Source of the DNA: a virus
IMG/VR virus record: IMGVR_UViG_3300025168_011682
Coordinates: 1 to 30,566 of that record
Direction: 5' to 3' (one strand)
DNA length: 30,566 bases
The stretch's first letter is position 1; each line of letters begins with the position of its first letter. The translations under genes and the position numbers were made by a program. Below, in pieces: positions 1,951 to 30,357 of the stretch. Under the pieces are notes generated by a model. It saw only the letters and a list, made by a program, of their open reading frames with translations, had not been told where the DNA came from and searched no databases.

Positions 1951-2399
1951 CTAGTCTTTCCTACTGCTGATCCAAAGTAAAATCCAACAATGGTAACGAG
2001 AATCTGTCTGTTCTCTGTGGTGAAAAGATATCCATCAACAGGAACAAATGTTGTGTCCTCGTATGTACCAAACAACCCAAAGAAATCTAAGAAGTGTGGT
2101 TTGTTTTCTACCAATTCAACTACGGTTGGGACCGAGAAGAATGGAAGAATGAATGGTGCAATGATTGTTCCGAATAGAATACAAAGAACAATGAATCGAC
2201 GGACCACTTTACCTGCATCGCTGCCGACTCTCTGGATCGCTTGATTATGTGATTCATTGTTTGCTTTATTTGCATCAAGTAATCTATTAAATCGCTCTTG
2301 TTCGTTTTGTCTTTTTTCTGCAAGAGACTTAAAGATAAAACCAGTGATGCTACCGCCAACTAATGATAAAAATTCTGCTGTTAGTAATCCTTCGATCAT
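1947..2399 (-). CDS. Holin-like membrane protein (3-TM type)
   Basis: This 150-aa protein has a hydrophobic N-terminus (about 5-24), a charged coiled-coil-like stretch (about 27-65), a long hydrophobic block (about 68-95) and a C-terminal segment ending VTIVGFYFGSAVGK. The last feature resembles the end of the GTA_holin_3TM family. Holins form holes in the inner membrane to time lysis. It overlaps both neighbours by ATGA, and the next gene has spanin architecture. The signal-peptide lysozyme that may partner it lies far away, at 19221-19664. Family assignment is by pattern only. Confidence 0.6.
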   Translation of the reverse strand: MIEGLLTAEFLSLVGGSITGFIFKSLAEKRQNEQERFNRLLDANKANNESHNQAIQRVGSDAGKVVRRFIVLCILFGTIIAPFILPFFSVPTVVELVENKPHFLDFFGLFGTYEDTTFVPVDGYLFTTENRQILVTIVGFYFGSAVGKTR

Positions 2400-2836
2400 G
2401 ACTTATTGTGTCTAAGTCTACCGTCGTTTTGTCTACGACGAAGAAAGACAACTTCTCCTGTTTCTTCGTTTCTAATGACAACTGGTTTAGATGGGTTTCG
2501 TAAAGAAAATCTTTTTATCTCCGTCCCCAGTTCAGAGGTTTCATCGATATACTTGTTCCATCTAGCACCACGAACTTTTCCTGCTTTTAGTTTTTCAAAC
2601 TCTTCGGCAGAGACGCTAAATGATTTACCCTCATATTTCTCTAGTTCTTTTTTCTTCTTCTTTTTTAGGAGTGGTTTGTCTAACCCAGCAACCTTATCAA
2701 ACGAACCGTTTGTATCAACTCCGCCCTGTGAAATAGAAGCACCGCCAGCATTTGTCGGTGCTTCTTCTATGAAGAATAATTCTAGTACCCCAGATTGTTC
2801 TTGTGTGTATTGTTTAAATTCTTCAAACGATTTCAT
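2396..2836 (-). CDS. Putative packaged internal head protein with capsid-targeting N-terminus
   Basis: This 146-aa protein starts MKSFEEFKQYTQE, closely like the T4 capsid-targeting sequence (MKTYQEFIAE in IPIII). A fitting gp21-type site is I-E-E near residue 24 (FFIEEA). The rest is charged and includes a run of six lysines (KKKKKK) and an arginine-rich end, suited to contact with DNA. No enzyme motif was found. It overlaps the preceding gene by TAATG and the next by ATGA. Cargo status is inferred from the N-terminus shared with seven other proteins in the window. Confidence 0.7.
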   Translation of the reverse strand: MKSFEEFKQYTQEQSGVLELFFIEEAPTNAGGASISQGGVDTNGSFDKVAGLDKPLLKKKKKKELEKYEGKSFSVSAEEFEKLKAGKVRGARWNKYIDETSELGTEIKRFSLRNPSKPVVIRNEETGEVVFLRRRQNDGRLRHNKS

Positions 2837-3213
2837 TATAGTCTCCTGAGTATCTGTATAACTTTTGTATCCATTGGGACTCGTACATATGCTTCATCTT
2901 CAGGAAGGTAATTTAGGTAAACCAAAAATGTTTTCACTAATGGTTTAAATCTATCTTCCATACGATAGAAAAGCATCTTAGTCGCTGCTTCCATCTCAAA
3001 TACATTATAAAAGATGATGATATGATTCAATATCAATCGTTCTTTAAGTTCTCCGGTTGAGAAGTATCTGCCAAACAGACGCTTGACATATTTGATTCGG
3101 TTTATATCCTCTTCAAATTCTTCTCTTCCCGAGCAAGAAGGATTTTTATAATTTTGCATTGCATAATCTTGGAATGCATCATCATCAAAACCATAATAAA
3201 TATTATCTATCAC
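2836..3213 (-). CDS. Conserved marine-phage protein of unknown function
   Basis: I start this 125-aa protein at a GTG (3213) one base beyond the stop of the upstream gene. The longer upstream frame merely shadows that gene, and the protein reads well from here (IDNIYYGFDDDAFQDYAMQNY). The segment with YVKRLFGRY, GELKERLILNH and FYNVFE resembles a family I recall as common in T4-like marine phages, with no known function. The fold looks helical. It overlaps the next gene by TAATG. Confidence 0.75.
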   Translation of the reverse strand: MIDNIYYGFDDDAFQDYAMQNYKNPSCSGREEFEEDINRIKYVKRLFGRYFSTGELKERLILNHIIIFYNVFEMEAATKMLFYRMEDRFKPLVKTFLVYLNYLPEDEAYVRVPMDTKVIQILRRL

Positions 3214-3214
3214 A

Positions 3215-3532
3215 TCAGTGTTCTTTCCACTTTCCTGCCGCTCGCCCTTGGGCAACTCGCTTCCCAACTTCCTTTTCAAATGCTTTTTGCATCTTAGTTT
3301 CTTGTGGGTTGCCTTTGGATCCAGCAGAAAAATGCTTTTGCATAATCTTGGTGATATCACCCTGAAGATGTGGTCCTTCGATCTTAGCAATCTCCGATGC
3401 TGCTGCATCGGCATGTGTTCCCATTTCTTCTGGGACGGCGGGTTCTCCGCCACTAATAACTTGACTAACCGCATCAATAACCCCCTTGAGGTTATTAGTA
3501 GTGCTGTTGTCAAATGGATTTGGTGCTGTCAT
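3215..3532 (-). CDS. Small hypothetical phage protein
   Basis: This 105-aa protein has a strong ribosome binding site (CAGGAGATAAACA-ATG) and an upstream ATAAATAC element that may be a late promoter. The N-terminal half is polar (S/T/N/A/G). The C-terminal half is basic, with KMQKAFEKEVGKRVAQGRAAGKW. No family recognised. It overlaps the upstream fusion protein gene by 4 bases (ATGA) and heads the small block that leads to the lysis genes. Confidence 0.75.
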   Translation of the reverse strand: MTAPNPFDNSTTNNLKGVIDAVSQVISGGEPAVPEEMGTHADAAASEIAKIEGPHLQGDITKIMQKHFSAGSKGNPQETKMQKAFEKEVGKRVAQGRAAGKWKEH

Positions 3533-5769
3533 TGTTTATCTCCTGTACTAAAGTATTTATGTGCAATTTCATTCAATTCACCCGGAGTCATTTTTTTATA
3601 ACGCCGTACAATTTCATCAGTTCCCTCTTCAGGAGGAGAATCAAAATCAATATCTTCCTCGGTGGCATCACGTTTTGCCATCTTGGTTGCGGTGCCGTAC
3701 ATCACCGACTTGTAATCTGAACCATAGCGTTTTTTAAAATCTTTCGCTTGCTTCTTCATTCCTTTTATATATTTCTCTTTTTTATCCTTCTCACCCTTAG
3801 TGAGAGTTCTCTCTTCAAGTTCCTGCATGTAAACTTCGTTGGTGTGAACCACTACGTTGTTTTCTTTCATAAACTCGTTACCAAGGAGGGAAGGATATAC
3901 ATTTGAACTGCGATCAGATAAAGAGAACTTTACATTTTCAAAAGTCTTTCGACCAATCTGCATGTCCATCTCGACCACATATCGTTCTTCAAATTTACCA
4001 CCACCCATGTTTATCTCTACAGTGTCAACCACTGGACGTTTAAACTTGGTGCTGTCGAAAACAAACCGGACTGTTCCTTTGCTTTCTTTTATTTCTCTTG
4101 CATCAACGACAGAATATGATGAGTTACCAGAATCAACTCTAGTTTTGATTGTACGTCCACCGATCTTGACAGTTTCAACACGACCGACAGTGAATGCCTC
4201 TGCCGGTTTAGTGATGAGTAGCGATCTCTCTACAATATCTCTGACGAGTTCGTCGCCATCGACAACTCCCTCTTCTTGATCCTCGTCGATATACTTTGTA
4301 TAATCTTGGGCACCAGAACCGGGAGAAGCGTTCACTTCAATGGCATATAGTTTTCCGTCCTTAGCAATCGCATGGTCTACGCCAGCAAGGATAGCACCAG
4401 ATGCCTTTGCAATTTTCTTTACAAATTTCTTTTCAGATTCAGAGAGGGAATATGGTTCGCTTTCTGCACCCAACGCCTTGTTGGTTCGGAAGTCTTTCTC
4501 TGCCTTGAGTCGTTTCATGGATGCGACGATTTTACCATCCATGACAATACTTCTTACATCTCCATCGATGTCGATCATTTCCTGTACAAGAATATCCTCG
4601 CCGCTTTTACGCAGTGATTGTACAACTGATTTGAAAGACTCTTGTGAGTCAACCTTCGCAACACCGATTCCCTCTGCGCCATGAAGTGACTTCACGATGA
4701 CCGGGAACTTTCCACCGACCTTCTTGTGCGCCCGATCAATCGATGACTCGTTTGTGATCAACGCGGTTCGTGGGGTATTGATATTTTCTCTTTCAAACAA
4801 AACGTGGGTGGCATACTTGTTACCAAGCAAGTCGAAAACTTGCTTTGAATTTATAACCAAAGTATTGCTACTGTCCAGACCCTCAACTAATGCTCGACCA
4901 CCTGCGGTCTTCATGGAGGATCCTCGGACAAAAGCAATTGTTTCTTTGACATTAATTGTAATGTCTTCGCCCTTCTTATCAATGTTTTCAATTGTTAGAT
5001 TGTCGCCGTCCACATCACCGATATATGCCGTGTCCGCACGAATGACCGTGGGTTTGTGTCCTAAGTCTTCTACTGCATCGATAAGTTTAGATGTAGTGTC
5101 TCCTTTATCAGAAGCACTAACGATGAGGAATCGTTTGAGGTTGTTCTTCTTTGGTTCCTTGGTTTCTTCGTTTAGACCCATCTCTTTCTTCAGAGTATCG
5201 AAGAGTTCTTTTGCAACTCTTTTACCAACACCCTTGGGAATTCCTTTCATAAAGGAGTCGAAGTCATTGTCAGTAACGGCAGCACGCATTTTCGACGCAC
5301 TCATTCCACTGACATCGGTTGCGTCTGGATCACGCTCACCGGCACTAACGACTTGAAACTTTTTAAGTCCCATTTCATCAACGTAGGGTGCGATGGTTTT
5401 CTTGAACTCATCGACCCGATCACCACCGACAACTAGGGTGATGTCGGTGTAATTTTTCTTTACAAGACTTTCAATTGCGGTGAAAACAGTCTTTGCATTT
5501 TTGTCGTTGACAATCCGGGCACGCGGGAAGAACTTCTTGAGAAATTTTACTTTATCTTTGGTCTGAAGAGGGTTCTTCTTTTTATCCTGCGTTCGACTGG
5601 GGAAAATAAAGGCATCCGCCCCCAGTTTCTTCGCAGTTGATAGGACAGCATCCACCAGTTTACCGTGACCGGTTGTTGGTGGTTGAAACCTACCGAATGT
5701 GAGGACAGCAGATTTCTCTTTCTGTCCCCTGAGTAGGGTACGTTCTTTTAATGAACGATATTCTATCAT
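3529..5769 (-). CDS. Nucleotidyltransferase / RimK-like ATP-grasp / aspartyl-protease-like fusion, probable packaged effector
   Basis: This 746-aa protein starts MIEYRSLKERTLL, a capsid-targeting-like N-terminus with an L-K-E site. Domains: (1) about 20-200, a cytidylyltransferase-like fold with GRFQPPTTGHGK (HxGH-type) and SGMSASKMR (ISSxxxR-type). (2) about 212-525, an ATP-grasp ligase close to RimK, with FPVIVKSLHGAEGIGV, an ILVQEMIDIDGDVRSIVMDG strand and the metal-binding AIEVNASPG. (3) about 530-660, a retropepsin-like domain with V-D-S-G and YPSLLGNEFM, like the RimB/RimK-associated proteases. (4) a basic tail with KYIKGMKKQAKDFKKRYG, which I recall as a recurring module in marine phage proteins. 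RimK adds and RimB removes glutamate on ribosomal protein S6, so a ribosome target is possible but inferred. I chose the ATG at 5769, which overlaps the upstream TGA and follows AAGGAC, over a TTG 15 bases earlier. Confidence 0.82.
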   Translation of the reverse strand: MIEYRSLKERTLLRGQKEKSAVLTFGRFQPPTTGHGKLVDAVLSTAKKLGADAFIFPSRTQDKKKNPLQTKDKVKFLKKFFPRARIVNDKNAKTVFTAIESLVKKNYTDITLVVGGDRVDEFKKTIAPYVDEMGLKKFQVVSAGERDPDATDVSGMSASKMRAAVTDNDFDSFMKGIPKGVGKRVAKELFDTLKKEMGLNEETKEPKKNNLKRFLIVSASDKGDTTSKLIDAVEDLGHKPTVIRADTAYIGDVDGDNLTIENIDKKGEDITINVKETIAFVRGSSMKTAGGRALVEGLDSSNTLVINSKQVFDLLGNKYATHVLFERENINTPRTALITNESSIDRAHKKVGGKFPVIVKSLHGAEGIGVAKVDSQESFKSVVQSLRKSGEDILVQEMIDIDGDVRSIVMDGKIVASMKRLKAEKDFRTNKALGAESEPYSLSESEKKFVKKIAKASGAILAGVDHAIAKDGKLYAIEVNASPGSGAQDYTKYIDEDQEEGVVDGDELVRDIVERSLLITKPAEAFTVGRVETVKIGGRTIKTRVDSGNSSYSVVDAREIKESKGTVRFVFDSTKFKRPVVDTVEINMGGGKFEERYVVEMDMQIGRKTFENVKFSLSDRSSNVYPSLLGNEFMKENNVVVHTNEVYMQELEERTLTKGEKDKKEKYIKGMKKQAKDFKKRYGSDYKSVMYGTATKMAKRDATEEDIDFDSPPEEGTDEIVRRYKKMTPGELNEIAHKYFSTGDKQ
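3553..3560 (-). promoter_or_regulatory. Late-promoter-like ATAAATAC
   Basis: Read on the minus strand, CATAAATACTTT differs from the T4 late core only in its first base and lies about 20 bases before the ATG at 3532. The same ATAAATACTT occurs upstream of the 64-aa gene at 6106. It lies inside the end of the fusion-protein gene. Confidence 0.45.
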
Positions 5770-5900: not shown

Positions 5901-5911
5901 AGATCACCTCC

Positions 5912-6106
5912 TTATTTGGTGGACTTTGCACGCAACTTCGGTGCTGGTGCTTTTTTTGGTTTTACAACGGGGACTTCTGCGACAGGTGTAACTGGTTCTG
6001 GTTTAGGTAATGGTGTATAACCACAACGTGTTTTAGAACTAATTTCATCTCGACGAGATAGTCTTTTGATTTGATACGTCTTTGCATTTAATTTTCTAGA
6101 TGCCAT
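5912..6106 (-). CDS. Small basic proline-rich protein
   Basis: This 64-aa protein has a strong ribosome binding site (AAAAGGAGATAAAC-ATG). The N-terminal half is basic (SRKLNAKTYQIKRLSRRDE). The C-terminal half is a low-complexity run of P, V, A and K (PEPVTPVAEVPVVKPKKAPAPK). It resembles small nucleic-acid- or head-associated phage proteins but belongs to no family I can name. Confidence 0.75.
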   Translation of the reverse strand: MASRKLNAKTYQIKRLSRRDEISSKTRCGYTPLPKPEPVTPVAEVPVVKPKKAPAPKLRAKSTK

Positions 6107-6122
6107 GTTTATCTCCTTTTAA

Positions 6123-6130
6123 GTATTTAT
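6123..6130 (-). promoter_or_regulatory. Late-promoter-like ATAAATAC
   Basis: The minus-strand sequence GGATAAATACTTAAAAGGAG places a near-consensus T4-type late core just before the ribosome binding site of the 64-aa gene. It overlaps the stop codon of the upstream gene. Confidence 0.45.
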
Positions 6131-7341
6131 CCTTTTTCCCAGTTCTTGGCGGCATTAAAGTTTGCCTGTGAGAAATTTAATCTATCAACGAGTTTAAATG
6201 CCCGATTTGATAGTCTATCGATTGCAACAAAACCCTCCGGGGCAGTCACATCGAATCCATTGTCCGTCTTAAGGAAGAGTCCAATAGACTTAACCTGTTC
6301 GATCTTACGGACGAGAATCATCTTGACATCACGCAACGCTGCATGTACAGCGAACATCCGTAACAACGCCTTGGAGTTGCTTCGGATATATGACATCATT
6401 TGTTTCTTTACTTGTAGTTTCTTTTCTTTACCTTTTTCAGACTTCATCTTGGCAATGTCTGTATCAAATTTCTTTTCGGTCCACTCCTTGAATCCTGCAT
6501 ATGTGGCAGAGGGAGTTCCGAATGCTCCAGCACGGACGAGTGTATTATAGAATGTCTTAATGTATAATTGCATCGTGTCATCAGCAAGGAAATCATCCAT
6601 AACCTTCATGGTCTTTCGGTCCATCATGGCACGAATCTTCTGTAATTTCTTTTTAACTGCTTCTGTTTCTTTTGCAGTAAATGTTGCAACTCCCGTTTCA
6701 TCTTTAAGTGTTGCATCGTCAAACCATACTGCTGAGGTTTTCTTAAGATATGAAATATCAGGACCAAATGATGCCTTCATCGTCTGGAGATCATTGCCGG
6801 TATATTTGGTATGGAAAATGATTCCCATCTTTGCTTTGACAATTGTATTCGCAAGATCGCTATCTGCCGGAACAGCGTATGTGATTGTGTTTGGAGTAAA
6901 GGTAATATAATCTACGCCATCGATCTTCTGGGAAGCAAGATCGTCACTGAACATCATATCACCCTGTAGCACATCTTTGATTCCTAGTTTTGATAAGTTT
7001 GCTAACGCAACTTTCAATTTATCAGCAAGACCGCCTGTATGATTTTTAGCAATATCTGCGTTAGTATAGTTTATCTTTGGGGTAACATTGAAAACACTCT
7101 TCGACCCAACGAAGAACTTTCCGTTCTCGGGGTTGATGCCCGCAAAGACTGCGGGTGCGCCGTCCCATTTGACAGTGATGTTGTACTTTTTCGACCCACT
7201 ACCTGCTAACATTTTTACAAGAGATTCTGCAAAGGTAATTGCTTCTCTTGCACCCTTGGATCCATTGTTGATCAACTCGTCTTCAAGGTGTTCAAGGTGG
7301 AGGTTCTTTTCTTCGGATAAGAATCTTTTAAAATCTAACAT
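6127..7341 (-). CDS. KWDG-motif nucleotidyltransferase-like protein, probable packaged cargo
   Basis: This 404-aa protein starts MLDFKRFLSEEK, a capsid-targeting-like N-terminus with an L-S-E site. At residues 58-61 it has K-W-D-G (VKWDGAPAVFAG), the motif I lysine of the ligase/capping-enzyme nucleotidyltransferase superfamily. A motif III-like LQGDMMF is at 125-131 and a motif IV-like GIIFHTKY at 173-180. Similar proteins in T4-like cyanophages are, as I recall, listed under a DUF (DUF6267) without an assigned function. If active, it would form a lysine-AMP and join or modify nucleic acid ends. The C-terminal third is helical and basic. It follows the PAP2 gene after 1 base (TGATATG). Confidence 0.72.
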   Translation of the reverse strand: MLDFKRFLSEEKNLHLEHLEDELINNGSKGAREAITFAESLVKMLAGSGSKKYNITVKWDGAPAVFAGINPENGKFFVGSKSVFNVTPKINYTNADIAKNHTGGLADKLKVALANLSKLGIKDVLQGDMMFSDDLASQKIDGVDYITFTPNTITYAVPADSDLANTIVKAKMGIIFHTKYTGNDLQTMKASFGPDISYLKKTSAVWFDDATLKDETGVATFTAKETEAVKKKLQKIRAMMDRKTMKVMDDFLADDTMQLYIKTFYNTLVRAGAFGTPSATYAGFKEWTEKKFDTDIAKMKSEKGKEKKLQVKKQMMSYIRSNSKALLRMFAVHAALRDVKMILVRKIEQVKSIGLFLKTDNGFDVTAPEGFVAIDRLSNRAFKLVDRLNFSQANFNAAKNWEKG

Positions 7342-7342
7342 A

Positions 7343-8056
7343 TCAATATCCTTCCATGCCGGTTGGTGGTGCGGGTAAGTCTTTATATTTTATTTTTTTA
7401 GTCTCATCCGTCTTCATCGAAGCGTATAATTTATTTCCTAGTTCCACACCCGCTTCGTGGTCGCTAGGATAGTGTACACCGGCGTTTAGTCTTGACTGAC
7501 CACATTCTTCCGCTAAATCTAAGAAACTGCTAGAGTGGTCTCTATGGAGTCCTGTGAGGTACAGTGCGATGAGTCTGGACTGCCCACTGTGTCCACTAGG
7601 ATACGCTGGAGAGTCCGCTGTGCCGCTCTTGAGAGGAGATAGGGGAAGACCCATATCTTTCGCTACAATGCCCGGACGAGGACGATCAAAAAGATACTTT
7701 TGCTTTAACATCACGACCGTGGAAGCGTTGATTATATCATTTAAAAGTTCTTTATCATATCGGAGATTGTTGTCTTTAAGATACTTTACAAATGGAGCAA
7801 GAAGATCCAGATCCCACTTATCCAACATTTTCTTATTGTCTGTTCCCAGTTCAAGTCTATCTTGTAATTCCATGAGTTCCGCCCGCGTCTCGTCAGAGGA
7901 ACTGGACGGGGGTGCAGAGATTAGACCCTGAACGGAGTCCACGGGCAGAATCTCATGGGATTTTTGCATAATGCGATATTGATGTGCAGTTGGTTCACCA
8001 TGAGAGGTGACTGCACTTTGTTCTTCTAATGAAATGTAAGTTTTAAAAGATTTCAT
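7343..8056 (-). CDS. PAP2-superfamily acid phosphatase, probable packaged cargo
   Basis: This 237-aa protein carries the full PAP2 signature: K118-x6-R125-P126, P153-S-G-H156, and S188-R-x5-H195-x3-D199. These form the phosphate pocket, with H156 and H195 as the catalytic pair. It has no signal peptide or membrane span, so it resembles soluble class A acid phosphatases and haloperoxidase-like proteins more than lipid phosphatases. Its N-terminus MKSFKTYISLEEQ fits a capsid-targeting sequence with an L-E-E site. The substrate is unknown (phosphomonoesters, nucleotides or a polyprenyl phosphate are all possible). It overlaps the upstream gene by ATGA. Confidence 0.88.
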   Translation of the reverse strand: MKSFKTYISLEEQSAVTSHGEPTAHQYRIMQKSHEILPVDSVQGLISAPPSSSSDETRAELMELQDRLELGTDNKKMLDKWDLDLLAPFVKYLKDNNLRYDKELLNDIINASTVVMLKQKYLFDRPRPGIVAKDMGLPLSPLKSGTADSPAYPSGHSGQSRLIALYLTGLHRDHSSSFLDLAEECGQSRLNAGVHYPSDHEAGVELGNKLYASMKTDETKKIKYKDLPAPPTGMEGY

Positions 8057-9135
8057 ATCTTAGTAAAGTCAATATTGTTGTTAAAGGAAACGCTTGGTTC
8101 TGCTCCGAGGAATTCGATCAGGTTCTTTCCTGACTTGACAACGAATTCTTTGATCTTGGCAATTTGCTTCTTAAGGAAAGCAATGAACTTGTTAAGAATT
8201 CTTCCAAGAATACCTTCGTCGAGTTTACCCTCATTAAGTAGTTGACCAATTTCCTCATAACTCTCGGTGAGTTTATCTACAATAAGTCCGATGGCAGACC
8301 AGTAACGATAACGCCCGGTCTTGACTCCACCAGACTTTTCACTGGTGGTCTTGAACCGGACGGAAACTTTCATCTTACTTGCAACTTTTCTTACATATGC
8401 TTCGTCGCCAACTCCAACCAATTTAATTGTATTGCCGTCGTCAGAGACCGAGAGGAAGTGAGAACATGAACCATCACTACCACCGAATTTAATATCACCA
8501 GTCATTGCTTCATATGCAAATTCGTATGCAAAGTCTGGGTTCGATGCAAACATCTTTTTCATGTCTCCCATCAGAACCTTGTGTGCTTCATTCGCTGCTT
8601 TAACTACTTTATCTTTACCGAGTTTAATTTCATCTTTGAGATTACTCTGTGCGATACTTGAGGGAGATAAATCAAGCATTGCCTTTTCGATACGGGATGC
8701 CATGCCACCCATGTTAAGACCTAGACGGTCAATAGCACAATAGAAGGTAGCGATAGATTCGTTCTTACCACCACTCATTAACTGAGCAGCACCACCAGTC
8801 TTTAATGAAATTTTATCATTGCCGATCTTGAAGTCTGTCTTTGGTGTCTTCGTGGATGCTGGAACCTTTCCGGGTAACCAGTATTGTGACCAGAGTTCAG
8901 TGACTTCTAGTTGGTCTGCACCGAGAACCAAACCTTTTCCCTTCACTCCTGCTTTGCGGAGTTGCTTGGCGATTCGTTCCCCTGCTCCGTCTTCGATACC
9001 GAATTTCGATACGGGTTGCGGTTCTTTGTTGATTGCTGCGATAATAAATTCTTCCATCTCCTCACCGCGAGATCTTGCCTCGTTTAGTTTATAGCAGAAT
9101 TTTGCCTGCTCATATAGGTCGTTGAATTCTTTCAT
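8053..9135 (-). CDS. PD-(D/E)XK-like nuclease candidate, probable packaged cargo
   Basis: This 360-aa protein starts MKEFNDLYEQ and has L-Y-E and L-N-E sites within the first 19 residues, fitting the capsid-targeting pattern. An N-terminal helix with E25/E26/E28/E29 is followed by a D101...S110-L-K112 element (KTDFKIGNDKISLKTG), which looks like a degenerate PD-(D/E)XK core. A basic segment near 275-280 leads to an amphipathic, lysine-rich end. The ribosome binding site is GGGAGA. It is the first gene of the long minus-strand operon, right after the terminator of the RNA module. The nuclease call is tentative; the coding call is firm. Confidence 0.7.
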   Translation of the reverse strand: MKEFNDLYEQAKFCYKLNEARSRGEEMEEFIIAAINKEPQPVSKFGIEDGAGERIAKQLRKAGVKGKGLVLGADQLEVTELWSQYWLPGKVPASTKTPKTDFKIGNDKISLKTGGAAQLMSGGKNESIATFYCAIDRLGLNMGGMASRIEKAMLDLSPSSIAQSNLKDEIKLGKDKVVKAANEAHKVLMGDMKKMFASNPDFAYEFAYEAMTGDIKFGGSDGSCSHFLSVSDDGNTIKLVGVGDEAYVRKVASKMKVSVRFKTTSEKSGGVKTGRYRYWSAIGLIVDKLTESYEEIGQLLNEGKLDEGILGRILNKFIAFLKKQIAKIKEFVVKSGKNLIEFLGAEPSVSFNNNIDFTKI

Positions 9136-9164
9136 GTAAGTCTCCCTTGACCAAATATGTAGGC

Positions 9165-9198
9165 GTAAAAGAAAAGCACCACCCGAAGGTGATGCTTT
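9165..9198 (-). terminator. UUCG-loop terminator ending the RNA module
   Basis: On the minus strand an 11-bp stem (AAAGCATCACC / GGTGGTGCTTT, one G-U pair) closes a C(UUCG)G tetraloop and continues into TCTTTT. It separates the tmRNA module from the operon that starts at 9135. Confidence 0.9.
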
Positions 9199-9648: not shown

Positions 9649-9679
9649 GCCATTCTCCTTTCTTGTTTCCCGAGTTAGT

Positions 9680-10005
9680 GAGATAGGCATTTGTCTGTAA
9701 TGCCTTGAATGAGGTTGCCCTCATCCAAGGGTCCGTGCTGCTATCAAGCAGCGAGTGAGTAACTGTTGTCAGTTAGATTTTGCAACCGCGATTAATGAGT
9801 AGGTCGCCTTCTCAGTCGTCTCCAACGCTTCGATTTCACCGAATCGATTCCATTTCGCCCCCGCCAAACACACTCTCCCGCCGTGTCATGTCTTTAATTG
9901 TTCTAGCGTTTCATATCTTTGAAACGAGAGAGTGTGTTTGGTGGAGGCGGGGAGAGTCGAACTCCCGTGTCCGTGTGAATCTTGCCGTCTTCCTCAACGA
10001 CACAG
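9680..10005 (-). ncRNA. ssrA: Permuted two-piece tmRNA (ssrA)
   Basis: The gene order is permuted. First comes the acceptor piece (about 10004-9939), containing CGGACACGGG, a T-arm with a 5-bp stem (GGGAG/CTCCC) and loop TTCGACT, then CGCCTCC-A-CCA with an encoded CCA. A 76-base spacer (9938-9863) has 14-bp complementary ends (AACACACTCTC pairing with GAGAGTGTGTT, plus three more pairs), which would juxtapose the two processing sites. The coding piece starts at 9862 with GGGGGCG, pairing fully with CGCCTCC and leaving a G3-U70 wobble, the alanyl-tRNA synthetase identity pair. Next come AAATGGAATCGATTCGG, a P2-like helix GTGAAATC/GATTCAC between the pieces, and a tag frame reading DNSYSLAA (9770-9747) followed by TGA TAG. 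Two hairpins follow: a 12-bp stem with a GCAA loop (9703-9730) and GGCATT/AATGCC (9686-9704). The exact 3' end is not certain. It would rescue stalled ribosomes and tag proteins for degradation. Confidence 0.92.
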
Positions 10006-10010
10006 TATGT

Positions 10011-10038
10011 ATTATAGCAGGTATTCAGTCTCTGTCAA
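10011..10038 (-). promoter_or_regulatory. Sigma70-like promoter for the tmRNA
   Basis: Minus-strand TTGACA (10038-10033), a 16-base spacer and TATAAT (10016-10011). The start would be near 10004, just before the acceptor piece. It lies inside the 3' end of the 69-aa gene. The spacer shares AATACCTG next to the -10 box with the promoter at 13337-13364. Confidence 0.88.
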
Positions 10039-16515: not shown

Positions 16516-16800
16516 TCAAAGAACTCCATAGATGGCATCATGCATTACAAGATAAATGCCTTCACTAATTTCTACCGATGGTGCTTCATCACGAATGTAT
16601 ACTGTACATCCTTCGGTAATGTGATCTGAAATGTTTTCACCATCACCAAGTGCAATAACAGTTGCGAGATTTTCAAACATCTTTCTCTTGTGGTTTGCAG
16701 GAAGAATAATTCCTGATTCGGTCTTTTCGTCAATCTTCTGTCGGGTGATGAGGAGTCGATCACCTACGGGTTGAAACCCTTTATCATTTTTATTTGTCAT
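16516..16800 (-). CDS. GroES-like co-chaperonin (T4 gp31 analogue)
   Basis: This 94-aa protein follows the Cpn10 pattern: GFQPVGDRLLI at the start, then the mobile-loop region with ESGIILP (the GroEL contact), ATVIALGDG, GCTVYIRDEA and VEISEGIYLVMHDAIYGVL at the end. Phage co-chaperonins such as T4 gp31 replace host GroES so that the large capsid protein can fold in GroEL. No GroEL is seen in the window, so it would use the host's. The mobile loop is of ordinary length. It lies 2 bases after the upstream gene. Confidence 0.92.
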   Translation of the reverse strand: MTNKNDKGFQPVGDRLLITRQKIDEKTESGIILPANHKRKMFENLATVIALGDGENISDHITEGCTVYIRDEAPSVEISEGIYLVMHDAIYGVL

Positions 16801-22487: not shown

Positions 22488-24743
22488 ATGCTTCAAGTCA
22501 ACCCCGGATTCGCTCGCCTGCTCGCCACTGAAAACATCGGTGTCGCTGTTGATTCCACTGCCCCTACGGCATCCTTCGATGTTAAGCGTCGAGTTCTTAC
22601 CATGCCGAACTGGGATTGCTCGGATCGTCTGAAGGATATGCTCATCGGTCACGAATGCGCCCACGCGATCTTTACTGATTGCGGCGATCTCGAAATTCTT
22701 CTTAAAGAAGTTTTCGGCTCCGTCAATATGGTGGCGAAGGACTATCTCAACGTGGTCGAGGATATCCGAATTGACAAGTTGATCCAGCGAAAGTATGCTG
22801 GTCTTCGACGCGACTATCGTGCGGGATACAGTGAGATGCGAAACCGTGACTTTTTCGGTATGGGCGATCGTGATCCCAATACCATGAAATTCATCGACCG
22901 TCTCAATTGCCACTTCAAGGGTTTCGATGGTGATATCCAATTCGACACCGACGAAATGGTTTTCGTGAATCGTGCTGAGAACACCGAAACTTTCGAGGAA
23001 GTTTGTACGCTTGCGAAGGATATTTACGACTGGTGCAAGGAAAACGAAAGTAGCGAAGAGGTTCCCGAAGAGGGTAACACTGACGCTCCCGGTGAGGGTG
23101 AAGGCGAATCGCCTATCGAAGTCCCCGATGCGAAGGACAGCGACGAAGACGGTCCTGCTGGTCAGGGTGGTGGTATGCCGTCCGACGAAGAGGGTGAAGA
23201 GGGCGAAAGCGGTTCCGGTTCCGGTACTGGCGACGATGGTGAAGACTCCGGCGATAGTGCCGACGACGACACCGATACCGGCGAATCCGCTGAATCGACG
23301 AACGGCTCCGGTTCGGGCGATGGTGATGAAGGTGACGAAAACGACACCGACACCGATGCCGACACTCCGAGCAAGGGATTTTCTAAGGTTCACGCTCCTG
23401 CTCCCGCTACTACGCAGCGAGCGATGGACGAAAACATTGCTGGCGAAGCGAAGGTTGAGAAGAACAACGGTTGGCGTAACGAAAATGCTAACTATGATCT
23501 TCCTCTCATGAATGACATCAACCTCGATAACATCATCGTCGGTCATAAGGATGTGATCGCTGCTGGTGAGGGTCTTGCTGGTAACGATGCCAAGTGGGAA
23601 GAATTCCAGCGTGGTGCGAAGTCCACCGTTGCAAATCTCGCTCAGATGTTCGAGCGTAAGAAGGCGGCAGCAATCAACGCACGAACGCAAACCGCGAAGA
23701 CTGGTCGTCTCGATATGACCAACCTTCACAAGTACAAGATGACCGAAGATATCTTTCTTCGTAACAAGATCGAAGTCAAGGGCAAGAACCACGGAATCGT
23801 CATGTACGTCGATTGGTCCGGTTCGATGGATGATTGTATGGCGGAAACCGTTGCTCAGACCACCATCACTGCGATGTTCTGCAAGAAGGTCGGTATTCCG
23901 TTCCGCGTCTACGGATTCTCGACCTATACCACGGGCGAGCGATACTCGCAGGATGACAACCATTGCTGGGGCAAGTCGGTCAACGGTAACCACTGGAACA
24001 TCGACGAAGACAAGCGGAACAAGCGTTCCATGAATCTTCAGAACTTTTCGCTTATCGAACTTTTCTCCGATAAGATGAAGAAGGCGGATTGGGACCGTAT
24101 GGGTTCGTTCCTCATGTGCATCGGTGACTATGCTAAGTCATACGACTATCCCGGTATGCTCCACCTCGGTGGTACTCCTCTGAATGAGTCCATCGTCGCT
24201 GCTATGAAGATCGCTGGCGAATTCCGTCGAGCGAACGGTATCGACGTTCTCAATAGCATCTGGATCACTGACGGATGTGGTGGAGATCCCTTCGAGAGTC
24301 AGCGTGTTATGGTCCAGCAGCGTGAGACTGGTCGCAACTGGTCATTCGACGCCTACGCTGGCGATGCTTGTGGAACCAACGCTCTCTTCCGTATGTACAA
24401 GGATCTCGCTGGTGGCAACCTCATCGGTATCTTCCTCGATAGCAAGAAGTCCATCGAAAGAAATCTTTACTACGCTGATGGAAACTATGAACTCCGCGAA
24501 AGAAAGATCGAAAACTTCAAGAAGAACGGATTCATCGAGCAGTCACACAATGGTTATGATACCTACTTCCTGATGGATAAGAAGATTGCCGTCTACACCA
24601 GTAGCGAAAAGATGGATGCTCTCCCCGAGAACGCTTCCACCACCCGCGTCATCAACGCATTCCGCAAGGATCTCGGCAAGCGTACCATGTCCCGTCCGCT
24701 GCTCAACACCTTCACGGATAAGATTGCAAAGGAAATTGTGTGA
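22488..24743 (+). CDS. CobT-like VWA-domain protein with N-terminal HExxH motif
   Basis: This 751-aa protein has an HExxH at 55-59 (GHECAHAIFTD) followed by a CobT-like helix (VVEDIRIDKLIQRKY). Residues about 185-300 are an acidic, low-complexity linker of E, D, G, S and T. The C-terminal VWA domain has the MIDAS motif D442-W-S-G-S446 (YVDWSGSMDD), a later GGTPLNES threonine and WITDGCGG. CobT is the VWA partner of CobS-type ATPases in aerobic cobaltochelatase. Here the pair could remodel a phage or host complex, with or without protease activity. Its leader is identical to that of the AAA+ gene. The large frame on the opposite strand is a shadow caused by codon bias. Confidence 0.9.
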   Translation: MLQVNPGFARLLATENIGVAVDSTAPTASFDVKRRVLTMPNWDCSDRLKDMLIGHECAHAIFTDCGDLEILLKEVFGSVNMVAKDYLNVVEDIRIDKLIQRKYAGLRRDYRAGYSEMRNRDFFGMGDRDPNTMKFIDRLNCHFKGFDGDIQFDTDEMVFVNRAENTETFEEVCTLAKDIYDWCKENESSEEVPEEGNTDAPGEGEGESPIEVPDAKDSDEDGPAGQGGGMPSDEEGEEGESGSGSGTGDDGEDSGDSADDDTDTGESAESTNGSGSGDGDEGDENDTDTDADTPSKGFSKVHAPAPATTQRAMDENIAGEAKVEKNNGWRNENANYDLPLMNDINLDNIIVGHKDVIAAGEGLAGNDAKWEEFQRGAKSTVANLAQMFERKKAAAINARTQTAKTGRLDMTNLHKYKMTEDIFLRNKIEVKGKNHGIVMYVDWSGSMDDCMAETVAQTTITAMFCKKVGIPFRVYGFSTYTTGERYSQDDNHCWGKSVNGNHWNIDEDKRNKRSMNLQNFSLIELFSDKMKKADWDRMGSFLMCIGDYAKSYDYPGMLHLGGTPLNESIVAAMKIAGEFRRANGIDVLNSIWITDGCGGDPFESQRVMVQQRETGRNWSFDAYAGDACGTNALFRMYKDLAGGNLIGIFLDSKKSIERNLYYADGNYELRERKIENFKKNGFIEQSHNGYDTYFLMDKKIAVYTSSEKMDALPENASTTRVINAFRKDLGKRTMSRPLLNTFTDKIAKEIV

Positions 24744-25876: not shown

Positions 25877-26644
25877 ATGCAGTTACCAATACTTGCTAGG
25901 TATCTCTCAGCGTCTTTAATATGCTCCTCATTCATGGGAAGTTGTGTTTCTCCAGTAACCACAACCACCTTCGATAACACTCCTCCTACATCAGAACCTT
26001 TCACCCTTCCTCAGTCTGATTCTTTTTCTTATCATTTGTTTGATGAAAATGATTCATATGATTTTGTTGGTGCAATACGAAATTATAACACTGGTTCTGT
26101 AATTGGGACGGGTGTACTCATTGCACCTAATGTTGTTCTCTCTGCTGCTCATGTTGTGAACAGTAAAGATATGGATAATCTAGAATGGGTCGAAGTTGAT
26201 GGTGATCGATCTTGTATTAACAGAATTGTCTATTTTCCCTCTATTTTAAGGCGAAATTGGCATGATATTGCCCTTGTATTTCTTGAGTCTGATTCTGATA
26301 AGGATCCTTGTTTAATGTTTAATAATGCGACCGATGACTTGTATAAAAATATGCCTCTTACCACAGTGGGGCATGGTCATGGACTACGCAGAAACAGCAA
26401 TCCCGGTGTCTTCAGATATTACGGGAGACTTGTTCTTTCACCAAGATTCATGATCATGCTCCCGCTAAGGGATACCGTCTGGCACGGTGACTCGGGTGGT
26501 GCGATTCTTACTCATGATAACAAATTGATAGGAATCATTACACATTATGGAATTACAAGTGATGGTCGTATATACGAGAATGCCGGTGCGTCGATTGAAT
26601 TCTACAAAGAATGGATCGACTCGCATCTGGCAACTCTACCCTAA
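25877..26644 (+). CDS. Trypsin-like serine protease with lipoprotein-type signal
   Basis: This 255-aa protein has an N-terminal hydrophobic segment ending in a lipobox-like M20-G-S-C23, so it is probably a lipoprotein. A low-complexity T/P/S linker follows. The catalytic triad is clear: H92 (LSAAHVV), D130 (NWHDIALVF) and S206 (HGDSGGAIL), the S1/trypsin arrangement. It would act in the periplasm or at the outer membrane. Codon use is AT-rich like the gene before it, and no ribosome binding site is seen, so both may be recent arrivals. Possible roles are cleavage of envelope or competitor proteins. Confidence 0.85.
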   Translation: MQLPILARYLSASLICSSFMGSCVSPVTTTTFDNTPPTSEPFTLPQSDSFSYHLFDENDSYDFVGAIRNYNTGSVIGTGVLIAPNVVLSAAHVVNSKDMDNLEWVEVDGDRSCINRIVYFPSILRRNWHDIALVFLESDSDKDPCLMFNNATDDLYKNMPLTTVGHGHGLRRNSNPGVFRYYGRLVLSPRFMIMLPLRDTVWHGDSGGAILTHDNKLIGIITHYGITSDGRIYENAGASIEFYKEWIDSHLATLP

Positions 26645-26673: not shown

Positions 26674-26961
26674 ATGCCAACGTACAGTTTTAGTTGCGGA
26701 AGTTGTGAAAAGTCGTTTGATAGTTTTCTTACCATGTCCAAGTGTGAGGAACCATTGGGCGAAGCATGTCCAGAGTGTGGTGAGTCGGGTAAAGTCGTGA
26801 AAGCATATACGGCAGCACCCACCGCATGGATGGATTCTAATTATATGGTAGACAAACCACAAGGTGGTCAATTCCAAGATCGTATGCAACACATCATGGA
26901 CAACCATCAAGCACTCGACAAGGAAGCAAGGGATAATCTAGGAAGACACACCACTCGATGA
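26674..26961 (+). CDS. FmdB-like zinc-ribbon protein
   Basis: This 95-aa protein starts MPTYSFSCGSCEKSFDSFLT, the usual FmdB start, and has a second knuckle CPECG (ACPECGESG), giving a zinc ribbon. The C-terminal half is polar and helical. FmdB-family proteins are small putative regulators; the phage role is unknown. AGGAG lies 9 bases before the ATG, and a TAAATACA element upstream (about 26647) resembles a late promoter core. It overlaps the next gene by ATGA. Confidence 0.85.
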   Translation: MPTYSFSCGSCEKSFDSFLTMSKCEEPLGEACPECGESGKVVKAYTAAPTAWMDSNYMVDKPQGGQFQDRMQHIMDNHQALDKEARDNLGRHTTR

Positions 26962-29162
26962 CCAAGCGTATACCCAAATCCAAGGAGGGGCAAGACCCCG
27001 ATACCCACAGTGATCTCTACACAGACGAGGATCCCAAGGGTACGATACATGGACTCGGGTTCACGGATGCGGCAAGGGCGAGAGAGTCGGTTGTCAAGAT
27101 TGAAAAGTCGGATCGCACCCATGCACATAAGGTGCAGGCAGCAATCGCCATGAGTCAGAGGGCAAAGGTCGCCAGCAAGAGGGCGAATGATCCTGATAAG
27201 AAGAAAAACCTCGCTGCGGCAGCAGAGGTTTACTTCGCTTTTATAGAAAAGATGAAAAAAATAACTAAGAAGAGAACTATGAAAGAATTCAAAGATTACA
27301 TCAAAAAAGATTGCGGATGCGGATGCGACGAGTTGTCCGAAACCAGTGGTGAATACAAGGGTAAAGAGGTTGATCTCGATAACCCATTCCGCCTACCACA
27401 AGGATCGAAGAAGAAGTTCGGTGTCTACGTCAAGAACCCGAAGACCGGCAATGTCATCATGGTCAAGTTCGGTGACCCCAACCTATCCATCAAGCGAGAT
27501 AGTCCCGACCGACTCAAGAACTTTCGTGCGAGACACAATTGTGACGAAAAGACTGATAAGACCACTCCCGGTTACTGGTCATGTAAATTCTGGGAGAAGG
27601 ATAGTCCAGTATCGAAACTATTGAGCAAGGGTGATGTGACCGAGAGCATCAACACAGATATAAAGGGTTGGATTCATCCCAAGACAAAGAAGTCATATAT
27701 CACCAAACGCATGACTCCCTACCACGTTCAGTTCATTGTGCAGAAACCAAGAGACTTTGGTATCACCGTAAAAGATATCTTGGGTGTACTTGAAAAGTGG
27801 AACGACTCGATGGACGCACCTGATCCCGCAGAAGAAGCAAAAGATGAATTTTTAGATCTCAAAACCGGAAAGAAAGATATGCAGAAACTCGTCGAGTATC
27901 TTGCAATGAAAAAGGGTTGGTATCGTGTAGTTGGTGCTGACTGGTCTGAAATTACTGGTTTAAAGATAAACGATAAAATTATCAGTGATGTTCTTAATAT
28001 CATGGAAGACGAAGGTGTGATTCCATATGATGGACAAGGCATCAAGTCACTTGTTTGTGGTGAGTATCGACCGGATGGGGATTACATGGTCGAGAAATCA
28101 ATCAAGATACTTGAGGGTGATGCTATTATAAGAGCATTGCGTGGCAAGAAGACAGGTAAGCGTACAGAGATCGGACAGACTATGGCAATGTTCCGTGGTG
28201 AGTCTCTTGAAATTTCGCAACTCGATGAGGCAGTAGATCCCAAGGATATGCTTCGTATTTTCAATGATCTCAACAAGGGCGATAGCATCAAGGTTAAGTT
28301 TAAGTCAGTGATGGCAACAGCATCAAAGAACTTCGTCGAACTCGTTGTCACCAGTGGTCGCCGCACGGTAGGCAAGGCAAAGGTCGAGCGTATCATTCTC
28401 AAGTCGAAGAAAAACCCCGGTGGTGTGAAGTATTTCTTATACCGTCGAGGTGATAATGTATCGTTCGCAATGGGTGACATGGCAGCAATCGTCGATGACA
28501 TTCAAGAGAACGTACAAATAAACGAGGGTCTCAAGGATAGACTTGTTTCCAAGTTGTTGAAAATGACACCTGTTGCTAAACTTGTTGCAAGAAATCCACA
28601 GACTACACATCTTGCGATGAGTCTACTTGCGATCCCCGCAGTCAACAAAATACTTGATAGGGCAAATTATGATAATCTACAAAAGGTTATTGATATTGCC
28701 GAGTTCATGAAGGATTCGGTCGCATCACTTGGTGCAGAAAAAGATCCGTCCATGTGTGAGGATCGAGTCGTGAAATATTCGGAATTCTTAGACGAAAAGA
28801 CCTATGCAAAGTCTGGTCTGGGTAAGTGGATGAATCAACAGTCCGCAGGTGGTGGTGCCGGTTGGGATCGCTACGGGACAGACGGAGAGAAACTTGGCAA
28901 GTGTGGTGATGCCAAAGAGGGTGAACCATACAGTGCCTGTCTCTCAAAGCAGAAGGCAGATAAACTAGGCAAGAAGAAGATCGCATCATTTGTTCGTCGC
29001 AAGAGATATGCACAGGACAAGAAAAAGCGTGGTGACATTGGTGATGGTGGAAAAGGTCAAAAACCAATCAATGTCAAAACAGGCGTAACCGACAAAGATC
29101 CCAAGAAACAAGGAATTCAAGATTCTTGGTCTACTAAATACAATAAAGGATTCGATTCATGA
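26958..29162 (+). CDS. 734-aa mosaic of phage modules with internal capsid-targeting-like sequences
   Basis: Modules in order: (1) about 1-105, HSDLYTDEDPKGTIHGLGF and AHKVQAAIAMSQRAK, which I recall as a separate small protein in other marine phages. (2) residue 108, MKEFKDYIKKDCGCGCDELSE, a capsid-targeting-like start with an L-S-E site. (3) about 125-215, KEVDLDNPFRLPQGSKKKFG through YWSCKFW, a module also seen near phage head proteases. (4) about 215-600, of unknown fold, with a further L-D-E-A site near 425. (5) V605-K-Y-S-E-F-L-D-E, a second internal targeting-like copy. (6) about 635-734, GWDRYGTDGEKLGKCGD and SACLSKQKADKLGKKKIASF, a recurring basic module. It may be a precursor cut by the prohead protease. 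Internal starts at 27279 (ATG) and 28770 (GTG) are possible. Confidence 0.78.
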   Translation: MTKRIPKSKEGQDPDTHSDLYTDEDPKGTIHGLGFTDAARARESVVKIEKSDRTHAHKVQAAIAMSQRAKVASKRANDPDKKKNLAAAAEVYFAFIEKMKKITKKRTMKEFKDYIKKDCGCGCDELSETSGEYKGKEVDLDNPFRLPQGSKKKFGVYVKNPKTGNVIMVKFGDPNLSIKRDSPDRLKNFRARHNCDEKTDKTTPGYWSCKFWEKDSPVSKLLSKGDVTESINTDIKGWIHPKTKKSYITKRMTPYHVQFIVQKPRDFGITVKDILGVLEKWNDSMDAPDPAEEAKDEFLDLKTGKKDMQKLVEYLAMKKGWYRVVGADWSEITGLKINDKIISDVLNIMEDEGVIPYDGQGIKSLVCGEYRPDGDYMVEKSIKILEGDAIIRALRGKKTGKRTEIGQTMAMFRGESLEISQLDEAVDPKDMLRIFNDLNKGDSIKVKFKSVMATASKNFVELVVTSGRRTVGKAKVERIILKSKKNPGGVKYFLYRRGDNVSFAMGDMAAIVDDIQENVQINEGLKDRLVSKLLKMTPVAKLVARNPQTTHLAMSLLAIPAVNKILDRANYDNLQKVIDIAEFMKDSVASLGAEKDPSMCEDRVVKYSEFLDEKTYAKSGLGKWMNQQSAGGGAGWDRYGTDGEKLGKCGDAKEGEPYSACLSKQKADKLGKKKIASFVRRKRYAQDKKKRGDIGDGGKGQKPINVKTGVTDKDPKKQGIQDSWSTKYNKGFDS

Positions 29163-29581
29163 AAACATTCAGTGATCTTTCACTCAATCTCCAAGAGAAA
29201 AATGTTCCCGACAACCCCGCTCTATGGGACAAGGCGATCGCAAAAGCAAAGTCAAAGTTTGATGTTTACCCATCTGCATATGCAAATGCATGGGCATCAA
29301 AGTGGTACAAGGGCGAAGGTGGTACATGGAGTGTGAAGAAGGAAGAAGTCGAGGAAGCACTGATGGACCAAGGATCCGAAGATAAACCACTCATCAAATG
29401 GTTTGATGAGTTCGAGAAAGTTCTCAAGAAGTCAGGTGGTAAATATGAAGACATTAAACCCACCGACATGCTTAAATTATACTATAAGGGTGTAAATCCA
29501 AGGAATGCTGCAAAACAATTAATGGCATCCTATACATGGGACAAAACTAAAGGCGAATACGTCAGAATGGATTCCGAATAA
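29159..29581 (+). CDS. Probable packaged protein with SAYANAWASKWYK module
   Basis: This 140-aa protein starts MKTFSDLSLNLQEK, a capsid-targeting-like N-terminus with L-Q-E. It continues with KFDVYPSAYANAWASKWYKG, a short module I recall from many phage proteins. The second half is helical, with a positively and negatively charged surface (DEFEKVLKKSGGKYEDIKPT). It overlaps the mosaic gene by ATGA. No enzyme motif found. Confidence 0.75.
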   Translation: MKTFSDLSLNLQEKNVPDNPALWDKAIAKAKSKFDVYPSAYANAWASKWYKGEGGTWSVKKEEVEEALMDQGSEDKPLIKWFDEFEKVLKKSGGKYEDIKPTDMLKLYYKGVNPRNAAKQLMASYTWDKTKGEYVRMDSE

Positions 29582-29583
29582 AA

Positions 29584-30357
29584 ATGAAATCATTTAAAAG
29601 ATATTTAAAAGAAAAAGTAGGTGCGAATAACGCATCTTTTGCATCAGCAGGTTCTTCTCCAGCAACTAAGTTTTCTGGTATAATGGGGTTTGGTTCTGTT
29701 TCTGGAGATAGTCCTTCCTCGCCTGCAAACAAACCCGGTAAAGATATCAGTCCAGAGATCACTGCTGCCGTCGCCGCTGGTGTCAAGAGAAACAATATTG
29801 TTAGGGATAAAGAAACTGGTGCAGTACAGTTCAGAGGTATGAACGGTCAACTTTATAGTTCTCCCCATGCCGCGATTGCTGCCTCTAGACCAATAGTCAA
29901 AGCAGAAATGCGGAATGTACCGACGTTAAAAACTGTGAATCAGGTTCATGAATATACTGAGGTGTTCACTGATCTAGTCAAAACAGGTAATATTCAACTT
30001 TCATATGGACAGAATGGTAAAATTTCGAGAATTGAATACCGATCTGGTGACCAAGACCCAGTTGACCCCGATGGTCGTCCATTCCAAACAACCCCACCAG
30101 CAGCACAACCACCGGTCGATCGACCGAACATGGATGACCTCGACCCCGATGGTGACGGAAAACCCGGTCCCTATCCTCCCGATGTTATAGAACCCGATGA
30201 CAGCGGCGGCGGTTGGGGTAGATGGTTTGTTGATATAATCGAAGAGTGGTTTGATCAACAAGAACAGATTCGAGAGATAGAAAATGATTTCTGGGACAAT
30301 GTTTTCCAGATGCCTGATGATGACAATCGATATAACCGTGATAAGGGTGATGGTTGA
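29584..30357 (+). CDS. Probable packaged protein with proline/aspartate-rich linker
   Basis: This 257-aa protein starts MKSFKRYLKEKVGANN, with an L-K-E site at residues 8-10, the most compact targeting-like sequence in the window. The next 55 residues are S/A/G/P-rich and flexible. A central domain (about 65-150) is followed by a D/P-rich linker (DPDGRPFQTTPPAAQPPVDR) and an acidic, aromatic tail (WGRWFVDIIEEWFDQ). No family recognised. It starts 2 bases after the upstream stop. Confidence 0.75.
   Translation: MKSFKRYLKEKVGANNASFASAGSSPATKFSGIMGFGSVSGDSPSSPANKPGKDISPEITAAVAAGVKRNNIVRDKETGAVQFRGMNGQLYSSPHAAIAASRPIVKAEMRNVPTLKTVNQVHEYTEVFTDLVKTGNIQLSYGQNGKISRIEYRSGDQDPVDPDGRPFQTTPPAAQPPVDRPNMDDLDPDGDGKPGPYPPDVIEPDDSGGGWGRWFVDIIEEWFDQQEQIREIENDFWDNVFQMPDDDNRYNRDKGDG

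Follow-up and report, generated by a model that had tools for sequence, protein, structure and literature searches.

T4-like N-terminal leaders on unrelated proteins of an environmental phage suggest a ready-made enzyme kit inside the particle

Introduction

The closest described counterparts of the proteins reported here are the internal proteins IPI, IPII and IPIII of bacteriophage T4. In the T4 record the ipII and ipIII products begin with MKTYQEFIAE/A and the ipI product with MKTFKEF...TITE/A, a slash marking the cleavage point here and throughout. In T4 the ten N-terminal residues of IPIII are enough for packaging, and mutational data assign targeting to residues 4 and 7 and processing to residues 8 and 10 (PMC9026906). 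IP1-3 are further described as inhibitors of GmrSD restriction enzymes (PMC12373910), and ip genes of T-even phages have been found by means of their leader. Here we analyse a window of 30,566 bases, which is the entire environmental virus record IMGVR_UViG_3300025168_011682 of IMG/VR, in which seven genes, and one internal position of an eighth, carry N-termini of this kind. We consider it likely that these N-termini direct their proteins to the capsid as the leaders of the T4 internal proteins do, in which case the proteins would be enclosed in the head, probably trimmed, and brought into the cell together with the DNA.

The T4-like genes of the window have their nearest named relatives in the Kyanoviridae. 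Two further contigs enter the comparison throughout: G002, a 44-kb contig of the same phage in which every compared protein is identical to that of the window, and G001, an 86-kb contig from a relative whose copy of the predicted nuclease described below is 87% identical. The window and G002 are genome fragments.

Results

All eight peptides listed in the initial annotation of this DNA are present in the window, although only seven of them start genes; MKEFKDYIKK instead begins at residue 108 of a 734-residue protein. Position 4 is F or Y in every leader, and position 7 is F or Y in five and L in three. The proposed M-K-x-F/Y start was right in its aromatic residue but not always in its lysine, which is missing from two leaders (MIEY and MLDF), and the proposed (L/I)-x-E end is found in six (LKE9, LSE10, LEE12, LYE9, LQE13 and LKE10) but not in the other two. 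The leader of MKSFEEFKQYTQE ends in TQE, with VLE19 and FIE24/IEE25 as its next matches, and MKEFKDYIKK ends in KK, its next L-x-E being LSE21. The spacing of IPIII is reproduced exactly by MLDFKRFLSE and MKSFKRYLKE, and MKTYQEFIAE, which had been given as the start of the T4 internal proteins, is that of ipII and ipIII but not of ipI. No significant similarity was found among the bodies of the eight proteins (lowest E 0.014), as had been annotated, and residues 2-16 have a predicted local distance difference test score (pLDDT) below 50 in both AlphaFold models, those of the DUF6267 protein and the 360-residue nuclease.

The specificity of the leaders was assessed with two patterns. The lenient pattern (aromatic at 4, aromatic or aliphatic at 7 and hydrophobic-x-E by residue 22) was derived from the T4 internal proteins but written after the window leaders had been seen; it fits seven of the 47 curated window genes, one of them, the 146-residue protein, through VLE19 alone. 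When residues 2-25 were shuffled, a mean of 0.30 and a maximum of three fits were obtained in 5,000 trials, against the seven observed, and at internal ATGs of the window, Methylophilales phage Melnitz, phage HTVC008M and T4 the pattern occurs 21 times in 2,145. As a stand-alone predictor it was rejected, given that 12 of the 219 called T4 genes (bases 1-145000) fit and three of these are internal-protein genes. The strict pattern has the spacing of IPIII and is post hoc, having been defined after the proteome tables discussed below were seen. Among the same 219 T4 genes it selects ipII and ipIII only, at internal ATGs of seven phages it occurs in 7 of 4,250 cases, and in the window it marks two of 45 called genes, those of the DUF6267 and 257-residue proteins. 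The window leaders are real and beyond chance. An origin in chance or in a bias at translation starts, where early codons may be rich in Lys and Phe, could draw on the nine T4 genes that fit the lenient pattern and are not internal-protein genes, and on the late wording of that pattern; set against the shuffles, and against the concentration of the strict leader in a few families of other phages, it seems to us hardly credible.

That concentration emerged from three scans of viral contigs covering 12, 28 and 80 loci, the third being the best 80 of 347 DUF6267 relatives; several of the scanned loci derive from the same contigs. Thirty-eight families contained five or more non-redundant members and were counted. 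Among them, the cytidyltransferase-like proteins carry the strict leader in 13 of 14 cases, the DUF6267 proteins in 22 of 28, and two further families in every member (5/5 and 5/5). The nuclease family has it in four of 11 members (seven in a relaxed form) and the PAP2 family in one of six (five relaxed), while the families with less than one in five members tagged hold, in 329 members, a single strict leader, which is that of the PAP2 family. The strict leader is therefore concentrated in a few families of related phages. In an alignment of 22 DUF6267 sequences F4 and E10 are at least 90% conserved, and in an alignment of ten nuclease sequences E19, just ahead of the folded domain, is invariant. 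The DUF6267 alignment comprises 21 of 27 picks and the window, leaving out L143 (the window's duplicate), L002, L030, L152, L008 and L126, omissions that make its F4 figure somewhat flattering; the nuclease alignment comprises nine of 12 picks and the window, leaving out L143, L008 and L002. Melnitz encodes its nucleotidyltransferase (MKKFSEIIE) and RimK (MTQKFSQFITE) in two distinct genes, each with its own leader, and a zeta-toxin-like P-loop protein begins with MKTFAELQE.

Published mass spectrometry of relatives (S-CREM2, S-SZBM1, S-SCSM1 and S-SM1) provides the link to virions. The S-CREM2 virion table (Table 3 of PMC10665884) contains 52 proteins, and of the 219 genes of this phage five of the seven that bear the lenient pattern are in the virion, compared with 47 of the 212 others (Fisher 0.009). 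The strict pattern at annotated starts likewise marks seven S-CREM2 genes, five of them detected. Beyond the structural and lysis lists the S-CREM2 virion has four enzymes, three of which bear a leader, namely an S-adenosylmethionine (SAM) hydrolase (MKDFDSFLEE), an APH-like kinase (gp14, MKRFDAFLTE) and a cytidylyltransferase (gp154, MKNFSSFLTE). The fourth, a Cas9-like nuclease (L124 7704-10313), has a leader-like RFASFMAE at residues 18-25, with no ATG, GTG or TTG just ahead of it and CTG as codon 17. The cytidylyltransferase of S-SM1 is also reported in virions (PMC3037559), and the S-SM1 homologue begins with MKKFSAFLNE. All four virion-reported nucleotidyltransferases examined (S-CREM2, S-SCSM1, S-SZBM1 and S-SM1) carry a leader; a virion nicotinamide mononucleotide adenylyltransferase (NMNAT) is reported for S-CBWM1 as well. 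No targeting leader is mentioned in the S-CREM2 and S-SM1 papers.

Head genes of the T4 type are present in the close relative G001: a gp21-type protease gene (14179-14826; Peptidase_S77, E 2.1e-40) precedes homologues of gp22 and gp23. The G001 capsid protein reads YLKE/AAPS where T4 gp23 has FLTE/AEIG, the end of a 65-residue propeptide in T4, and from this comparison we infer the G001 cleavage site. A Peptidase_S77 search found no match in the fragment G002 and matches in four of eight related records. Cleavage of the leaders by such a protease, as initially annotated, is plausible, with a candidate site in six of the eight and with E10 and E19 conserved in their families.

A number of observations weigh against the capsid-targeting reading. 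The residue after the leader glutamate (P1′) in the six window leaders is E, Q, R, K, K or Q, whereas it is A in the three T4 internal proteins, and MKSFEEFKQYTQE and MKEFKDYIKK have no cleavage motif at the leader end; a second site in the nuclease, E19, does have A at P1′. The proteins may accordingly be packaged by means of the leader yet stay uncleaved, the leader serving as an address only, a possibility that would accommodate both of these features and has a precedent in T4, where Asp at position 10 is described as blocking processing while still allowing targeting (PMC9026906). In two families, however, Glu 10 or 19 ranks with the best-conserved residues of the leader, and we therefore hold this to be unlikely, though deserving of real weight.

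The remaining points concern the virion data and the families. The mass spectrometry is that of relatives and not of this phage, and the association between leader and virion is clear in one of three proteomes. None of the four pattern-bearing proteins of S-SZBM1 was detected (table in PMC9146016), its detected cytidylyltransferase beginning with MRFRQFIIE, one residue off the lenient pattern; the strict pattern at annotated starts marks four S-SZBM1 genes, one of them detected. In S-SCSM1, for which virion marks were taken from the record (48 genes, compared with 45 in the paper, and with one of 282 genes lacking an extractable N-terminus), one of four was detected, NMNAT (MKSFLQFLKE), and there is no enrichment. 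With the three proteomes pooled, detection covers six of 15 pattern-bearing proteins and 124 of the 702 others (Fisher 0.038). Small proteins with leaders of exact IPIII spacing went undetected by mass spectrometry (S-SZBM1 191 and 192; S-SCSM1 30); such undetected small proteins are encoded near terminase genes at L131 2611-2928 (S-SZBM1) and L159 44215-44535 (S-SCSM1), where they start with MKSFKSFLSESVNISGDF and MKTFKQFMSESVNISGDF. The lenient pattern also occurs, with no virion detection, in the small terminase subunits of S-CREM2 and S-SCSM1. The family of the 746-residue fusion has the strict leader in none of six members and a relaxed form in four. Across all 27 DUF6267 picks the strict leader occurs 22 times; in three it is shifted or shortened and in two it is missing, so that the leader behaves as a detachable addition, and the S-SM1 copy of DUF6267 has no leader.

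The virion signals could also stem from carry-over of enzymes that are abundant in the infected cell, with the leader having some other use, for example as a docking signal for a replication or membrane complex. Carry-over in caesium chloride (CsCl) preparations is raised by the S-CREM2 and S-SCSM1 authors themselves, the marked S-SCSM1 set holds a leaderless RegA-type translational repressor, which is probably carry-over, and in Melnitz and HTVC008M the cassette of leader-bearing genes comes after a gp41-type helicase gene. Yet the four enzymes of the S-CREM2 virion outside the structural and lysis lists are leader-bearing or leader-like, the polymerase, helicase and ribonucleotide reductase annotated in S-CREM2 do not appear in its virion table, and the leader fits the T4 capsid-targeting positions, all of which makes this explanation improbable in our judgement. 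Taken together, the published virion proteomes give moderate support to capsid targeting.

Table 1 Leader-bearing genes, their untagged neighbours and other features of the window
Feature	Position	Strand	Leader (position)	Remark
146-residue protein	2396..2836	-	MKSFEEFKQYTQE (2798-2836)	Leader end without L/I-x-E
105-residue untagged protein in cluster	3215..3532	-		7 homologues among fetched loci
746-residue fusion	3529..5769	-	MIEYRSLKE/R (5743-5769)	
64-residue untagged protein between tagged genes	5912..6106	-		BLAST
404-residue DUF6267 protein, probably ligase-like	6127..7341	-	MLDFKRFLSE/E (7312-7341)	
237-residue PAP2 phosphatase	7343..8056	-	MKSFKTYISLEE/Q (8021-8056)	
360-residue predicted PD-(D/E)XK nuclease	8053..9135	-	MKEFNDLYEQAKFCYKLNE/ARSRGEE (9079-9135)	
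Transfer-messenger RNA (tmRNA)	9653..10035	-		ARAGORN, tmRNA*
Cpn10/GroES-like protein	16516..16800	-		Pfam E 6.5e-11
AAA_5 ATPase	20899..22113	-		
751-residue protein	22488..24743	+		
Trypsin-like protease	25877..26644	+		Pfam Trypsin_2 E 2.2e-11
734-residue multi-module protein	26958..29162	+	MKEFKDYIKK...LSE (27279-27341)	Internal, leader-like
140-residue protein	29159..29581	+	MKTFSDLSLNLQE/K (29159-29197)	
257-residue protein	29584..30357	+	MKSFKRYLKE/K (29584-29613)	Exact IPIII spacing

The bodies behind the leaders (Table 1) had been guessed to include a phosphatase, a ligase-like protein, a nuclease-like protein and a RimK/RimB-like fusion, and these guesses stand after the domain analysis, the ligase-like one as probable. 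The 360-residue protein matches phrog_22045 (E 1.3e-06), and in its family of ten aligned sequences D101, S110 and K112 are invariant, with TPKTD and a downstream S-x-K kept, so that the conserved D...xK core motif of the PD-(D/E)XK restriction fold is present. Its AlphaFold model aligns with HinP1I (Z 9.6, root-mean-square deviation (RMSD) 4.2, 183 residues aligned) and MspI (Z 8.9), the next row being DpnI at 4.3 and the first unrelated row 4.1, and in Foldseek it gives E 2.5e-03, which points to a restriction-nuclease fold like that of HinP1I and MspI. The 237-residue protein belongs to Pfam PAP2 (E 4.4e-10), and K-x6-RP, PSGH and SR-x5-H-x3-D, the motifs of PAP2 phosphatases, can all be read directly in its sequence. 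The 746-residue protein is a fusion of a nucleotidyltransferase, a RimK ATP-grasp and a RimB-like retropepsin domain (Pfam CTP_transf_like 1.3e-06, RimK 1.3e-34 and Zn_protease 7e-10; PHROG cytidyltransferase 2.3e-58), although its RimB/RloA NCBIfam matches fall below the family cut-offs; the nucleotidyltransferase domain ahead of RimK had not been named in the initial annotation.

The 404-residue protein is a member of Pfam DUF6267 (E 1.2e-116) in which K58, D60 and G61 are invariant over 22 aligned sequences, giving K-x-D-G, the motif of the covalent nucleotidyltransferase (DNA/RNA ligase) superfamily. Every one of the 50 rows listed by VIA-align for its model is an RNA or DNA ligase (best Z 8.6, RMSD 3.7, 189 residues aligned), a Z near 8 being one that can reflect a common arrangement. 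Foldseek alone gave nothing significant for this model (best E 0.25), for which reason a ligase-like function is graded here as probable. No function is assigned to the other leader-bearing bodies: the 140-residue protein has no Pfam family above cut-off, and the 257-residue protein no confident match among Pfam and PHROGs families. The N-terminus of the 146-residue protein differs among its homologues, and the alignment of HTVC008M gp131 to the 734-residue protein starts at residue 99, near the start of gp131 itself, which there reads MVKSFKEVEE. PADLOC defence-protein profiles matched none of the eight proteins at E 0.01.

This domain content also bears on whether the leader-bearing proteins are core or scaffold parts that are degraded at maturation, like T4 gp67 and gp68, and deliver no cargo. 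T4 gp22, gp67 and gp68 do hold many L/I-x-E sites and are cut to fragments (PMC5694885). The identified bodies in the window, however, are enzyme domains with few such sites (LSE10, FAE39 and FKE286 in DUF6267), and reports on purified virions include homologous nucleotidyltransferases, leaving degradation of this kind very improbable.

The tagged genes form a cassette whose order of nuclease, DUF6267 and nucleotidyltransferase is common to the window, Melnitz and HTVC008M, the window having its PAP2 gene between the nuclease and DUF6267 genes. The close relative G001 has an extra 77-residue gene with the leader MLSFKQFIDE between the nuclease and PAP2 genes (72952-73185; L140 12952-13185), so that the cassette gains and loses tagged genes, and G002 has an additional leader-bearing gene, MKSFLQYISEAF, directly past the right end of the window. 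The 64-residue protein between the tagged genes has no leader and no match in Pfam or PHROGs, and gave 12 BLAST rows including the window's own copy. The DUF6267 protein matches 464 phage records, the best being Melnitz at 47.8% identity, while a megablast of bases 2000-12000 against phage records gave no match. Late promoters were considered as a test of late expression and set aside, since tagged genes are not singled out by TATAAATA- and CTAAATA-type sites; one late-promoter-type site, ACTAAATA, lies 26 bases upstream of 29159.

Other features of the window were recorded in passing. The tmRNA encodes the tag peptide DNSYSLAA, and the Melnitz record lists a tmRNA too. The Cpn10/GroES-like protein is possibly a counterpart of the T4 head-folding co-chaperone gp31, and the start of the trypsin-like protease resembles, by eye, a lipoprotein signal. 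The AAA_5 ATPase and the 751-residue protein are divergently encoded, with an identical 26-base stretch preceding both starts, and both have homologues in HTVC008M.

Discussion

The capsid-targeting character of the leader, as initially annotated, is well supported by its agreement with the T4 IPI-III positions and by its concentration in families, and moderately by the virion proteomes of relatives; packaging of the leader-bearing proteins is probable. Our confidence is lowered slightly by the probable RegA carry-over and by the six members of the fusion family that have no strict leader. The mechanism that we propose starts from what is established here, namely the leaders, their conservation and family concentration, the domain content and the head genes of a close relative, and adds to it conjectured steps: binding to the core, cleavage, injection and activity from the outset of infection. 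The leader, with its aromatic residue at 4 and aromatic residue or leucine at 7, would bind the prohead core during head assembly, and otherwise unrelated proteins would in this way become enclosed in the head. The gp21-type prohead protease would probably then cut after the nearby hydrophobic-x-Glu, and the mature proteins would remain with the DNA and enter the cell with it. The cargo would consist of the probable ligase-like protein, the restriction-nuclease-fold protein, the PAP2 phosphatase, the nucleotidyltransferase/RimK/RimB fusion and three to four proteins of unassigned function. From the domain names one may guess that, early in infection, these proteins seal cut RNA, restore nucleotide cofactors or modify ribosomal protein S6.

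Unrelated enzymes bearing a T4-like address label suggest a ready-made enzyme kit inside the particle. We lean, if only slightly, towards a broader view in which the leader is a general, swappable address in ocean and freshwater T4-like phages, by which a varied kit would be released with the DNA before phage gene expression. Such a kit would include nucleotidyltransferase/NMNAT-like, ligase-like, restriction-fold nuclease, RimK/RimB, PAP2, SAM lyase and kinase members, and possibly a Cas9-like nuclease. A tagged enzyme set could explain the virion enzymes already reported in cyanophages; the papers concerned cannot tell packaged from carried-over enzymes, and a T4-type leader offers both a mechanism and a sequence test. 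If the reading holds, part of the accessory genes of abundant marine phages, most of which have no known role, would yield a ranked list of candidate injected effectors, the leader would help to predict such effectors across many uncultured phages of this kind, and the T4 leader would carry whole multi-domain enzymes in nature as it has been engineered to do in the laboratory. A literature search, which left subscription literature mostly outside its range, found no paper describing the leader on enzymes of marine T4-like phages.

The comparison with known systems is closest for T4 IPI-III, which share with the window proteins the leader length, the aromatic residue at 4, the aromatic residue or leucine at 7, the hydrophobic-x-Glu end (six of eight) and the unrelated bodies, as well as gp21/gp22/gp23-type head genes, here in a close relative. 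Unlike IPI-III, the window bodies include predicted enzymes of up to 746 residues, and P1′ is mostly not Ala. The T4 ADP-ribosyltransferase Alt is similarly a capsid enzyme; it has a propeptide at its N-terminus and passes into the host along with the DNA, but its start, MELITELFDE, lacks the aromatic 4/7 pattern. Ejection proteins of SPN3US and phiKZ likewise have propeptides cut after Glu by a gp21-like protease, although several of these are longer than 100 residues and, in SPN3US, just one has the length seen in T4. Cyanophage cytidylyltransferase/NMNAT proteins (S-SM1, S-SZBM1, S-SCSM1 and S-CREM2) have a homologous domain and a leader and are reported in virions; in the window copy, by contrast, this domain is joined to RimK and RimB-like ones. 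The leader mechanism itself is thus that of T4 and is known; what is new is its breadth, the tagged enzymes of marine T4-like phages forming a conserved and swappable set.

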